Source: Kaistia granuli DSM 23481 (GTDB taxonomy: Bacteria; Pseudomonadota; Alphaproteobacteria; Rhizobiales; Kaistiaceae). From it: a DNA stretch of 64,000 nucleotides. The position numbers and the translations under genes were made by a program. Numbering within the stretch: the stretch's first letter is position 1; each line of letters starts with the position of its first letter. The notes beneath the pieces were generated by a model that was not told the DNA's origin, ran no database searches, and was given only the letters and a program-made list of their open reading frames with translations. Shown in pieces: positions 23,674-36,268 of the stretch. The DNA is taken from the NCBI RefSeq assembly GCF_000380505.1, contig NZ_AQYH01000006.1, positions 372,001 to 436,000 on the forward strand. The letters are read 5' to 3'.

Positions 23674-24810
23674 TCAGCGCGGATGCCACCACGCACCGGC
23701 GACGACGACGCCATCTGCGAAGATGCGTTCGTCGGCCATCACGATGTTCCCGCGTGAATCCTCGAGCGGGAAGCTGCCTTGCCGGATCGACAGGATGCTG
23801 GCGTCGCCGGGACTGCCCGGCTTCAGCGTGCCGAGCTCGGGCCGGCCCAGCGCCGCGGCGGCGTTGACCGTCGAGGCGGCGATCACGTCGCGGAGCGACA
23901 TACCGAGCTCCAGGAATTTCGACATCGTCGTGACCTGGTCGAAAGCCGGACCGTTGATGCAGAGCGCGTGCACGTCGGACGAGATGGTGTCGGGCGCGAA
24001 ACCCTGCTCCAGCATCGCCCGCCCCGTTTTCCAGGCGAACGAACCCATGCCGTGGCCGATGTCGAAGATGACGCCGCGCTGGCGCGCCGCCAGCACTTCC
24101 GGTTTGATCCGGCCCCGGCCGTCGATCGGCGCGTTGGGGAAGGGACGGAAGCAATGCGTCAGTACGTCGCCGGGACGCAGCCGGTCGACGACCGCCTCGT
24201 AGGACGGCGGCGGCTCGTCGATATGCACCATCATCGGCATGCCGAGTTCGTCGGAGACCTGCAGCGCGATATCGAGCGGCGCGATGCCGCTGTCGCCGCT
24301 GGCATGGCGGCCGATGCGGACCTTGATGCCGACGACAACGTCGCGATTGGCGTCCGCCACCTCGAAGGCGTCCTGCGCCGCCATCAGGCGCATGTCATGG
24401 CTCTCGCCGACCATGATGCGGTTGGAGAAGGCATAGATGCCGGCAAACGAGACATGCAGATAGGCGAGGATGCGCACCGCGCTCGGCTCGATCACATGCT
24501 TGCGGAAGCCCGGGAAATTGCCCGGGCCGGCGCTGCCGGTATCGACCGAGGTCGTCACCGCGCTCTGGCGCGCATAGTCCTCGGCATCGACGCCGAGCGA
24601 GGTGCCACCCCAATAGACATGGGTATGCAGGTCGATCAGACCCGGCGTGACGATCTTGCCGGCGACGTCGCGGACATTCGCGGCATTGGCGGCAAGCCCC
24701 TCGCCGATCACGGCGACCTTGCCGTCGGCGAAGGCGACCTCGGTGACGCGGTCGATGCCCTGCGACGGATCGATGACGCGGCCATTGGCGAGAACCAGAT
24801 CAAACGGCAT
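23674..24810 (-). CDS. Amidohydrolase/deacetylase family metallohydrolase (COG3964, Atu3266/Oant2987 type)
   Basis: A 378-aa amidohydrolase-superfamily enzyme. Metal-site motifs in order are HxH in LIDLHTHVYWG, a probable carboxylated lysine in VVGIKVRIG, MVHIDEPP, LTHCF, and a catalytic Asp in SSDVHAL. COG3964 members such as Atu3266 and Oant2987 were reported to deacetylate acetyl-(R)-mandelate and similar alpha-acetoxy carboxylates. The start MPFDLVLANG (24810) is preferred over the ATG three codons earlier. It is the last gene of the long minus-strand run, 316 bases after the hydantoinase. Confidence 0.85.
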   Translation of the reverse strand: MPFDLVLANGRVIDPSQGIDRVTEVAFADGKVAVIGEGLAANAANVRDVAGKIVTPGLIDLHTHVYWGGTSLGVDAEDYARQSAVTTSVDTGSAGPGNFPGFRKHVIEPSAVRILAYLHVSFAGIYAFSNRIMVGESHDMRLMAAQDAFEVADANRDVVVGIKVRIGRHASGDSGIAPLDIALQVSDELGMPMMVHIDEPPPSYEAVVDRLRPGDVLTHCFRPFPNAPIDGRGRIKPEVLAARQRGVIFDIGHGMGSFAWKTGRAMLEQGFAPDTISSDVHALCINGPAFDQVTTMSKFLELGMSLRDVIAASTVNAAAALGRPELGTLKPGSPGDASILSIRQGSFPLEDSRGNIVMADERIFADGVVVAGAWWHPR

Positions 24811-25126
24811 GGCGGGCAACTTCTTCGCTCTGGATGGACATTGAGAAGCGCGACGACAGCTTCGCGCGCGACGCCGCCAACGGATGTTCGGCCGCCATGA
24901 TCAACTCATTCTCCTGATCGTTTTCCCCGACGTTGCCAAACGATCGCACAGCCCGATGCATCGCGGAAGAGCGGCGAGAACGGAAGACGGCGGTCGGTTG
25001 CTCCAGCGCGGGCCGCGACCCCGTCGAACCGGGCCCTGCCCGAGGGAGGGGCGAGCGCCAAACACGATGCTCTCCCCTGCCCTCGTTCCGGTGTCTCCCC
25101 CCGACACACCGGAACAGCGCGCCTTT
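24811..25126. other. Intergenic gap with hairpin and REP-like element
   Basis: 316 bases with no gene. It holds a perfect 10-bp inverted repeat GTTCCGGTGT (25085-25094) / ACACCGGAAC (25106-25115) shortly after the hydantoinase stop. A REP-like palindrome CCCTGCCCGAGGGAGGGG is at 25034-25051. Without a T-run the hairpin may be a processing or partial termination point between the two amidohydrolase genes. Confidence 0.45.
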
Positions 25127-34697: not shown

Positions 34698-36268
34698 TGA
34701 GCCGCCTCCGTCGCGATCTCGTCCCGGGCATCGAAAACGCCAACCATCATCTGACCGATGCGTTCCGGCGTCGTCGTCCGCGTATGGACCGGCGGCGACA
34801 TCCTTCCCTCGAACATCACCGCCATCCGGTCGGAGATCTCGAACAGTTCTTCCAGTTCCTCGGAGATCAAGAGGATCGAAACACCCGCGTCCCGCAGATC
34901 GACCAGCTTCTGGCGCACCATCGTCGCCGCGCCGATATCGATGCCCCAGGTCGGCTGGGCGACCACCATGACTTTCGGCCGCAGCATCATTTCGCGACCG
35001 ACGATGAATTTCTGCAGATTGCCGCCCGAGAGGCTCGACGCGTTGGAGCCGGAGCCGCCGCAGCGCACGTCCATCTCGCGAATGCAGCGCTCGGCGTGCT
35101 CGTCCCGCACCCGCTTGCGGATGAAGCCGCGCGCGACCATGCCGAGACGATGGCCGGTCAGGAGCATATTGTCGTTGAGCGACAATCCGGGCGCCGCCCC
35201 CCGGCCCAGGCGCTCCTCGGGAATGAAGGAAAGCCCCTGCCGGCGACGCTCGGCCGCCCCGAGATGACCGACGGCGTCTCCGAGGATCTCGATCTCGCCC
35301 TTGCGCGCGGCAGGCAACGTCTCCTCGCCGGACAGAAACCGTGACAACGCCTGCTGGCCGTTGCCCGATACGCCGGCGATGCCGAAGATCTCGCCGCGCC
35401 GGACTTCGAGACAGACGCCCTTCAGATTGACGGCATGGGGATCGCGCTCCCGCGTCGACAGGCCGCTCACCCGCAGCGCAATCTTCGCATCGGGCTTTGC
35501 CTCGGCATGGGTCGAGCGCGGAATATCGCGGCCGATCATCATCTTGGCCAGGCTACGCGACGTTTCTTCGCGCGGATCGACATGGCCGGTCACCTGGCCG
35601 TGGCGCAGGATCGTCGCCGAATGACAGAGCGCGCGGATTTCCTCGAGTTTATGGCTGATGTAAAGGATGGCGATGCCCTTGTCGGAGAGCATCCGCAGCG
35701 TCACAAACAGCTTCTCGACGGCCTGCGGCGTCAGCACGGAGGTCGGTTCGTCGAGAATGAGCAGCGATGGCTCCTGCAACAGGCAGCGCACCAGCTCCAC
35801 CCGCTGCCGCTCGCCGACGGACAGCTTGTAGACGAGCGCATCGGGCTCGACCGCCAGCCCGAACGTCTCCGAGGCCGCGCGGATGCGACGCGAGAGATCG
35901 CGGATATCACCAGGCACCGTGAAGGAGATGTTCTCGGCGACCGTGATCGTCTCGAACAGGGAAAAATGCTGGAACACCATGCCGATGCCGAGCGCGCGGG
36001 CGCGCGCGGGGCTGGAGATTTCGGTCGGCCGCCCCTTCCAGTAGATCGTCCCGGCATTCGGCTGGGTCACCCCGAAAATGATCTTCATCAGGGTCGACTT
36101 GCCGGCGCCGTTCTCGCCCAGAACGGCGTGAATTTCGCCCGGACGAATATGGATGTCGATCTTGTCGTTCGCGATCAGCGAGCCGTAGCTCTTGGTGATC
36201 CCCTCAAGCCGCAAGAGGCTCTCGGGCTGTGCGCCAGACCCGGCGGCGCTGCCCGGGGAAATCAGCAT
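34694..36268 (-). CDS. BMP-type ABC transporter ATP-binding protein (two NBDs)
   Basis: A 524-aa double ATPase (YufO/NupA type). The first domain has Walker A GENGAGKST, a signature in KLSVGERQRVE and Walker B LLILDEPTS. The second has a degenerate Walker A GVSGNGQQ, LSGGNLQKF and VVAQPTWGID, which is normal for this class. The start at 36268 is uncertain because no strong ribosome site is seen; the frame runs to 36358. It is the first gene of the long minus-strand run and divergent from a LysR gene. Confidence 0.9.
   Translation of the reverse strand: MLISPGSAAGSGAQPESLLRLEGITKSYGSLIANDKIDIHIRPGEIHAVLGENGAGKSTLMKIIFGVTQPNAGTIYWKGRPTEISSPARARALGIGMVFQHFSLFETITVAENISFTVPGDIRDLSRRIRAASETFGLAVEPDALVYKLSVGERQRVELVRCLLQEPSLLILDEPTSVLTPQAVEKLFVTLRMLSDKGIAILYISHKLEEIRALCHSATILRHGQVTGHVDPREETSRSLAKMMIGRDIPRSTHAEAKPDAKIALRVSGLSTRERDPHAVNLKGVCLEVRRGEIFGIAGVSGNGQQALSRFLSGEETLPAARKGEIEILGDAVGHLGAAERRRQGLSFIPEERLGRGAAPGLSLNDNMLLTGHRLGMVARGFIRKRVRDEHAERCIREMDVRCGGSGSNASSLSGGNLQKFIVGREMMLRPKVMVVAQPTWGIDIGAATMVRQKLVDLRDAGVSILLISEELEELFEISDRMAVMFEGRMSPPVHTRTTTPERIGQMMVGVFDARDEIATEAAQ

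Follow-up and report, generated by a model that had tools for sequence, protein, structure and literature searches.

Enzymatic dismantling of a fused nitrogen heterocycle has a tested precedent in the lumichrome (riboflavin) pathway of Nocardioides simplex, in which hydrolases, an enzyme of the xanthine-oxidase type and a Rieske dioxygenase take apart a fused pyrimidine (PMC12746152). For the uptake of such compounds the binding protein AtzT offers a model: guanine is reported to be held in a sandwich between Tyr45 and Trp194, with contacts to Ser97, the N of Phe98, Glu165, Asn218 and Asn220, the affinities being ~110 nM for guanine and 2.2 µM for 2-hydroxyatrazine (PMC6834077). The oxamate carbamoyltransferase activity of Escherichia coli is reported to require AllF, AllG and AllH together (PMC11326118). 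Here we describe a gene cluster of Kaistia granuli DSM 23481, located in a stretch of 64,000 nucleotides (positions 372,001 to 436,000 of contig NZ_AQYH01000006.1; referred to as the window), which combines a BMP-type importer, a Rieske oxygenase and an AllG-like protein that occurs without AllF. The gene set is real, rare, conserved and catabolic; it is ordinary in being built from known families and unusual in its AllG without AllF. We consider it fairly likely that the cluster is a LysR-controlled regulon of two operons for the import and degradation of a planar, lactam-containing N-heterocycle taken up as the free base, where the substrate, the order of steps and every reaction are what we infer. 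This conserved, apparently co-regulated set, which probably serves to import and dismantle a nitrogen-containing ring compound, is common to a Kaistia-group soil bacterium and a small number of distantly related ones.

An earlier note on this DNA, made from the sequence alone (the original prediction), knew of no described pathway with this set, and our literature searches on DUF1116, DUF2237, the pair of arylmalonate decarboxylase (AMDase) and hydantoinase, and combinations of cluster terms likewise found the gene set undescribed, most subscription journals being out of their reach. The lumichrome cluster, as described in the accessible part of its account, shares with the present one transport genes, hydrolases for a pyrimidine ring, a xanthine-oxidase-type enzyme (here in one genus of relatives only) and a Rieske oxygenase with ferredoxin and reductase; the genes annotated here, in contrast, include no cytochrome P450, catechol dioxygenase or thiamine-pyrophosphate-dependent decarboxylase, and the same part of the account names no AllG, DUF2237, AMDase-like or 157-amino-acid protein (PMC12746152). 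The lumichrome pathway is the best functional model for this cluster, not a family to which it belongs.

Two linked operons and a shared upstream element

The original prediction described a run of eleven minus-strand genes, and the eleven open reading frames (ORFs) at 23674-36268 indeed all lie on the minus strand, each falling by profile searches in the family that had been stated for it. The ATGA-type overlaps it mentioned were found as well: three overlaps measure 4 bp (34694-34697, 33600-33603 and 30110-30113) and one 8 bp (28533-28540), the remaining intergenic gaps being 21-173 bp, plus 307 bp ahead of the COG3964 gene, figures that depend on the start codons chosen for the ORFs. The genes of the predicted unit stand, whereas its boundaries do not: operon A comprises ten tightly packed genes, beginning with the ABC ATPase and ending with the hydantoinase, the COG3964 gene is absent from this place in the five relatives, and the unit runs past a LysR gene, divergent from operon A and convergent with operon B, up to 41121, the far end of operon B.

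34694..36268, minus strand: ATP-binding cassette (ABC) importer ATPase with two ABC stretches, first gene of operon A (Pfam ABC_tran; 89% identity in Kaistia adipata, 66% in Devosia limi)
33600..34697, minus strand: ABC importer permease 1 (BPD_transp_2; 96% K. adipata, 72% D. limi)
32680..33603, minus strand: ABC importer permease 2 (BPD_transp_2; 93% K. adipata, 66% D. limi)
31558..32637, minus strand: BMP-type substrate-binding protein, AtzT class (Bmp; nearest solved structures AtzT 6pi5, 234 bits, and 3s99, 217 bits)
30110..31384, minus strand: AllG-like protein (DUF1116; PF06545 222 bits, cut-off 27; in one clade with five relatives)
28533..30113, minus strand: amidase-signature hydrolase (PF01425; nearest solved structure 3a1k, 335 bits)
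28163..28540, minus strand: DUF2237 protein (PF09996; 62-98% in relatives)
27360..28118, minus strand: enoyl-CoA hydratase family protein (ECH_1; in 5/6 loci)
26573..27307, minus strand: AMDase/EutA-like protein in which only one of the two catalytic positions is a Cys (PF17645 and PF01177, Amdase/Asp_Glu_race)
25127..26551, minus strand: cyclic amidohydrolase of the D-hydantoinase/dihydropyrimidinase family (TIGR02033 574 bits, cut-off 393)
23674..24819, minus strand: COG3964 amidohydrolase (PRK09237 438 bits, cut-off 371)
36571..36608, minus strand: LysR-type element ahead of operon A, with the TCTATCTTGGA block (block in 6/6 loci)
36622..37569, plus strand: LysR-type regulator, whose ORF opens at 36589 (LysR_substrate, HTH_1; 97% K. 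adipata, 65% D. limi, 78-79% in genus g396)
37657..38130, minus strand: orphan protein of 157 amino acids, last gene of operon B (no Pfam family; 84/51/58/56/56% in five relatives)
38185..39414, minus strand: ferredoxin reductase (Pyr_redox_2 and Reductase_C; 84% K. adipata, 56% D. limi, 56-61% g396)
39587..39784, minus strand: single-cluster ferredoxin of 65 amino acids (Fer4_13; 80-93% in relatives)
39850..41121, minus strand: Rieske oxygenase alpha subunit, first gene of operon B (Rieske and Ring_hydroxyl_A, scanned as 39850-41226; 83-95% in relatives)
41536..41573, minus strand: LysR-type element ahead of operon B (recovered with its clade held out and compared with selection-matched shuffles)

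Querying a collection of 84,980 species' genomes with the AllG-like protein in a pattern-based scan, a method that reaches close relatives only, returned 37 matching stretches and two confirmed loci, in Kaistia adipata DSM 17808 (91%) and Devosia limi DSM 17137 (70%). Both encode the LysR regulator, the ATPase, two permeases, the BMP protein, the AllG-like protein, amidase, DUF2237, AMDase-like protein and hydantoinase in the same order and at 61-98% identity; the K. adipata locus also has the enoyl-CoA hydratase. Operon B lies beyond the LysR gene in the window and in K. adipata, and on the opposite side of the locus, still linked, in D. limi; its Rieske oxygenase is 95% identical in K. adipata and 83% in D. 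limi. Three further loci come from one genus (g396) in another family of the order. In the first of these (G944) the genes for Rieske protein, ferredoxin, reductase and 157-amino-acid protein, then LysR, then AllG-like protein, amidase, DUF2237, enoyl-CoA hydratase and AMDase-like protein (56-87% identity) are followed on the same strand by those for a TRZ/ATZ-type amidohydrolase, subunits of the xanthine-dehydrogenase type, a different BMP importer (26-41% identical to that of the window) and an enzyme of the 8-oxoguanine-deaminase type. The other two (G1065 and G1146) show the same arrangement with a hydantoinase (58-59%) after the deaminase. Profile scores place the G944 deaminase just inside its family (540 bits, cut-off 532), the second TRZ/ATZ-type hydrolase below all cut-offs and the PucCDE-like xanthine dehydrogenase parts below theirs.

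The six genomes fall into three groups (two Kaistia, Devosia limi and three of g396) with a core identity of 49-98%. Rieske oxygenase, ferredoxin, reductase, 157-amino-acid protein, LysR, AllG-like protein, amidase, DUF2237 and AMDase-like protein are present in all six loci and a BMP-type importer lies near each, with the enoyl-CoA hydratase and the hydantoinase each in five and COG3964 in one. The conservation that the original prediction proposed to look for, namely of DUF1116, amidase and BMP transporter, together with the hydantoinase in 5/6 loci, is therefore seen in other genomes of the order. Its inclusion of COG3964 was not upheld: the gene was looked for at the five related loci and found at the corresponding place in none (0/5), so that the conserved run probably stops at the hydantoinase and COG3964 probably lies outside the unit. 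We dropped this gene, which starts 307 bp past the hydantoinase, as a member of the pathway.

A 38-bp LysR-type element precedes operon A and operon B in all six genomes. Ahead of operon A it consists, at each of the six loci, of GAAC-N5-GTTC, to which the two Kaistia show a single mismatch, and of TCTATCTTGGA in register with it. A matrix made from the operon A elements was scanned over the 600 bp ahead of each Rieske gene and compared with 500 shuffles, of which none scored as well as the D. limi sequence and two as well as that of K. adipata. Because the operon B sites had been picked with the operon A matrix, we applied a selection-matched null, in which the entire site selection is repeated on 300 sets of shuffled sequences; the operon B copies have a mean cross-clade identity of 25.9/38, against a null mean of 12.5 and a null maximum of 14.9 (0/300). 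Each of the six operon B sites was also recovered with its own clade held out (0/500 shuffles for each). Since the element precedes both operons in 6/6 genomes and the operon B copies are alike beyond shuffles, operons A and B probably form one regulon, and this LysR protein would be expected to bind the element and regulate both. The Rieske operon and the shared element had been overlooked in the original prediction, and because of them an oxidative as well as hydrolytic pathway is indicated. A scan for sigma-70 promoters and terminators gave sites no commoner than in shuffles.

The AllG-like protein, the importer and the enzymes

The family listed as DUF1116 in the original prediction now bears the Pfam name AllG, which denotes a subunit of oxamate carbamoyltransferase, and apparently occurs here without its known partners. 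When E. coli AllF was used as query, the genomes of the window, K. adipata, D. limi and G944 gave one partial match each (23-25% over ~175 residues), which we read as succinyl-CoA synthetase, so that a real AllF appears to be missing in 4/4 genomes; no AllF was found in the 64-kb window or in the fetched loci of G1065 and G1146. An AllH query, in a search that had no positive control, gave no match in 6/6 genomes; in tblastn the AllH query matched AllF-linked loci at 26-41%. Carbamate kinase is encoded in three of the six genomes, and none was found in that of the window.

An AllG tree was built from 47 of 49 collected rows, leaving out L062 (G879, not fetched wide) and L023 (G171, short and with two stops). 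AllF is present in the fetched stretch for 22 rows and absent for 25, an absence that means little for the short contigs L041 and L043. The six proteins of the cluster group together in a single clade (100/100), whose stem measures 2.38 changes per column and whose exact place is unsure, as long branches meet in this tree. Of 106 columns that are near-invariant (in at least 21 of the 22 AllF-linked proteins), all six cluster proteins retain 75. Because these columns are retained and no real AllF was found, we conclude from the alignment that the AllG core is largely intact although its partner has disappeared. The locus is therefore similar to E. coli AllFGH in AllG family membership and in the retained columns, and differs from it by the lack of a real AllF and of an AllH match, the separate long-stem clade, the Rieske setting and a carbamate kinase in only half of the genomes. 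An AllFGH-type transcarbamylase was not adopted as an explanation, as no real AllF was found.

Other AllG-like genes occur in different settings. In a distant clade (L083-L089; 28-31% identity, 307-398 amino acids as extracted) a COG3964-type amidohydrolase is encoded within ~6 kb in 7/7 loci, and because these genes lie near each other a link of COG3964 with AllG is conceivable; one of the loci (L088) also carries a CoxS/M/L-type molybdenum hydroxylase, a phosphoribosyltransferase-domain protein and MarR. Glutamine-synthetase-like genes lie nearby in 5/8 loci of a clade without AllF (L038-L045), two of them confirmed by Pfam in L044, and those of L038, L039, L040 and L045 being blastp homologues. 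In L046, L047 and L090 the AllG-like gene is followed by an amidase-signature gene and a Rieske-type protein is encoded nearby, identified by similarity alone (26-34% to that of the cluster); L046 and L047 share a family of ~200 amino acids that has no Pfam family in L046, where it was scanned.

The binding protein had been assigned to the nucleoside class, whereas its nearest solved relatives belong to the free-base class of AtzT and 3s99; the G944 protein is likewise nearest to these two (218 and 203 bits). At the AtzT ligand site the window protein has W42, S94, F95, E162, W192, F217 and G219. Four of the seven guanine contacts are thus identical (Ser, Phe, Glu and Trp), and beside this likeness in the aromatic sandwich and the Ser/Phe/Glu positions, which accompanies the 234-bit similarity, it differs in having Trp for Tyr45, Phe for Asn218 and Gly for Asn220, both Asn being lost. 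K. adipata and D. limi have the same pocket (Trp, Trp, Ser, Phe, Glu, then Phe, Gly). In g396 both Trp and the Ser are kept, a gap stands at Phe98, Thr or Ser replaces Glu165, and Met and Asp take the places of Asn218 and Asn220. Trp at both sandwich positions is therefore common to all six proteins, and the equivalents of Ser97, Phe98 and Glu165 are kept in Kaistia and Devosia. From these residues we read the ligand as a planar, lactam-bearing free base other than guanine itself, which probably differs between the two importer groups.

The hydantoinase resembles D-hydantoinases and dihydropyrimidinases, with a score over the family cut-off and with H62, H64, K155, H187, H243 and D319, which we take to be the metal ligands, invariant in 7/7 sequences; it scores below the allantoinase cut-off (275 vs 358 bits). 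Its neighbourhood presumably differs from that of known hydantoinase operons. In the amidase the Lys motif is matched at 6/6 loci and the Ser/Ser motif pattern at four, the D. limi and G944 proteins not matching it. The solved relatives of the DUF2237 protein (3ush, 4ioh and 2lq3) bear no function name.

In the AMDase-like protein Gly80 and Cys191 are invariant in 10/10 sequences and align with AMDase positions, Gly at the first catalytic position and Cys at the second. We assume that these are the catalytic sites and that racemases and isomerases of this fold carry a Cys at both; with Gly80 in place of the first Cys the protein does not match a two-Cys racemase. The description of a single-Cys enzyme of the racemase fold holds for these two positions, not for the whole protein, which has other Cys residues, including the likewise invariant Cys95. 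It shares with AMDase the fold family and the order Gly then Cys, and differs in scoring below the cut-offs of the AMDase NCBIfam model (72 vs 225 bits) and of EutA (82 vs 318 bits). A pair of AMDase-like protein and hydantoinase exists on plasmids of Azospirillum brasilense Sp7 (56/68%, respectively), A. ramasamyi (56/68%) and Paraburkholderia sp. PGU19 (56/63%) and in the locus L048 (48/58%), and because it is present outside the cluster in these genomes the pair is a separable module. On a plasmid of Burkholderia glumae with transfer genes (L054, 9001-9714) an AMDase-like gene lies beside genes for a major facilitator superfamily transporter and a GntR regulator.

Operon B encodes the parts of a three-component Rieske oxygenase, with a Rieske motif, a mononuclear iron motif, a ferredoxin and a reductase, and the Rieske active-site motif is identical in 6/6 loci. 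A structure model of the 157-amino-acid protein (predicted local distance difference test score 77.7) gave no fold match in the PDB at E <= 0.001. Three His stand at or beside the end of this protein in 6/6 sequences.

Proposed pathway and competing explanations

The AtzT-class BMP importer would take up the heterocycle, which would then be oxygenated by the Rieske enzyme, served by a ferredoxin and a reductase of its own. The hydantoinase would next open a cyclic amide or ureide ring and the amidase free an amide or ureido nitrogen, after which the AMDase-like enzyme might decarboxylate a malonate-type intermediate, a role we suggest because Gly replaces the first catalytic Cys and the second base of a two-Cys racemase would thus be lacking. 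The last fragment, of the oxamate or ureido type, would be handled by the AllG-like protein without AllF and AllH, with the DUF2237 and 157-amino-acid proteins as possible helpers whose role we leave undefined. In g396 the same core would be fed by another BMP importer together with amidohydrolases of the deaminase type and an enzyme of the xanthine-dehydrogenase type. The theme originally proposed, in which an N-heterocycle is imported, its ring opened by hydrolysis and an amide cleaved, remains the likeliest. It is rather unlikely that the cluster more specifically represents a new route for a natural heterocycle resembling pteridines or purines, where the Rieske enzyme would open an oxo-ring to fragments of the oxalamide/oxamate or oxalurate type and a stand-alone AllG would finish the degradation; pteridine as substrate is our guess from chemistry and recall. 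If this were true, AllG would be a catalytic module recruited repeatedly into the degradation of N-heteroaromatic compounds. The locus brings together four poorly understood proteins in compact form (AllG without AllF, DUF2237, the AMDase-like enzyme and the orphan 157-amino-acid protein), and finding its substrate could give access to the natural role of AMDase, which to our knowledge is held to be open, and to what AllG contributes to catalysis by oxamate carbamoyltransferase.

Several observations weigh against a single two-operon pathway for an imported heterocycle. The two Kaistia and the three g396 genomes are close kin, so that the six loci amount to about three independent cases. No enoyl-CoA hydratase was found in the D. 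limi locus, so that this enzyme is not a universal member, and the G944 core has no adjoining hydantoinase (best match 40%, on another contig), so that the hydantoinase cannot be the sole defining step; the window's genome, moreover, holds more hydantoinase-family genes elsewhere (best 47% and 41%). The nearest PDB relative of the Rieske protein is carnitine monooxygenase (127 bits, residues 29-245 only), and in 6/6 proteins a Glu occupies the presumed bridging position, as in carnitine monooxygenase; these traits are compatible with plain C-N or N-alkyl oxidation. The pockets of the two importer lineages differ, and because Glu165 is replaced by Thr or Ser, Phe98 is not aligned and Asn220 is replaced by Gly or Asp, the two lineages may import different compounds, and the core may act on a late intermediate common to both. 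Lastly, the operon A matrix performs weakly on the other four operon B upstreams (41, 74 and 81 of 500 shuffles as good, and 157 of 500 for the window). The window contains 32 instances of GAAC-N5-GTTC with at most one mismatch, so that the bare box alone means little, and none of them lies in the 600 bp before the window's Rieske gene.

An improbable alternative is a variant of the ordinary purine route from urate via allantoin and oxalurate to oxamate, in which the Rieske enzyme would replace urate oxidase, the AMDase-like protein the 2-oxo-4-hydroxy-4-carboxy-5-ureidoimidazoline (OHCU) decarboxylase or allantoin racemase, and the hydantoinase allantoinase, with AllG acting on oxalurate. In its favour, the enzyme types come in a fitting order, oxamate carbamoyltransferase contains AllG as a subunit, and the g396 loci have genes of the xanthine-dehydrogenase and 8-oxoguanine-deaminase types. 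However, urate oxidase (Urate_ox_N, PF06181) and OHCU decarboxylase (PF09349) genes are located on other contigs in 6/6 genomes, so that the cluster is not simply the ordinary urate route, and we rejected a replacement of the urate and allantoin enzymes as the principal explanation; the AllF, AllH and carbamate kinase results and the hydantoinase score below the allantoinase cut-off also speak against it. We regard it as similarly improbable that the cluster is a hydantoin or dihydropyrimidine operon, where hydantoinase and AMDase-like protein would act as hydantoinase and hydantoin racemase, the amidase as N-carbamoyl hydrolase, and the AllG and Rieske genes would serve a separate purpose. 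Such an operon would agree with the D-hydantoinase score and with the pair found outside the cluster in two Azospirillum, one Paraburkholderia and L048, but not with the invariant Gly at the first catalytic position, the G944 core without a neighbouring hydantoinase, or the linkage and element that the Rieske operon shares.

That two or more unrelated units were joined by chance or horizontal transfer is very unlikely: the association has been kept in three groups despite rearrangement, with a divergent LysR gene and a similar element in 6/6 loci, even though the distribution is patchy (the 157-amino-acid marker being confined to a few genomes, see below) and COG3964, enoyl-CoA hydratase and hydantoinase are not universal. 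Recent recruitment for the catabolism of a man-made N-heterocycle, such as an s-triazine or a pesticide-like compound, would explain the similarity of the BMP protein to AtzT and the TRZ/ATZ-type hydrolases in g396; yet a core identity of 49-89% between groups speaks for an old divergence, and AtzT itself binds guanine more tightly than hydroxyatrazine (PMC6834077), which makes a man-made substrate most improbable.

Distribution and neighbouring genes

Surveys with the 157-amino-acid protein as marker covered a sample of the class, the family of G944 and the family of K. granuli, and found it in 1/385 genomes of the class sample (that of K. granuli itself), in 3/346 of the G944 family, all of one genus, and in 2/28 of its own family, which are 2/14 of its own genus. 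The AllG-like query matched 22/297 genomes of the order and 16/398 of a phylum sample, both counts including the window's genome and G171, whose hit is short and has two stops. In a search of plasmids the 157-amino-acid protein gave no match. AllG matched 193 plasmid records, 148 of them from six enterobacterial genera and 8 from Azospirillum, and the Rieske protein 958, all at <60% identity; the neighbourhoods of two of these Rieske matches, in Kozakia (annotated) and Novosphingobium (unannotated), contained no such core.

On the 3' side of the COG3964 gene, at 20851-23035 of the window and on the same strand, are genes of a sugar-type ABC importer (SBP_bac_1 and a BPD_transp_1 permease). Ahead of the Rieske operon, at 41645-44235, a GntR/FCD regulator gene and a gene of the altronate/galactarate dehydratase family are found, which resemble ordinary sugar-acid genes.

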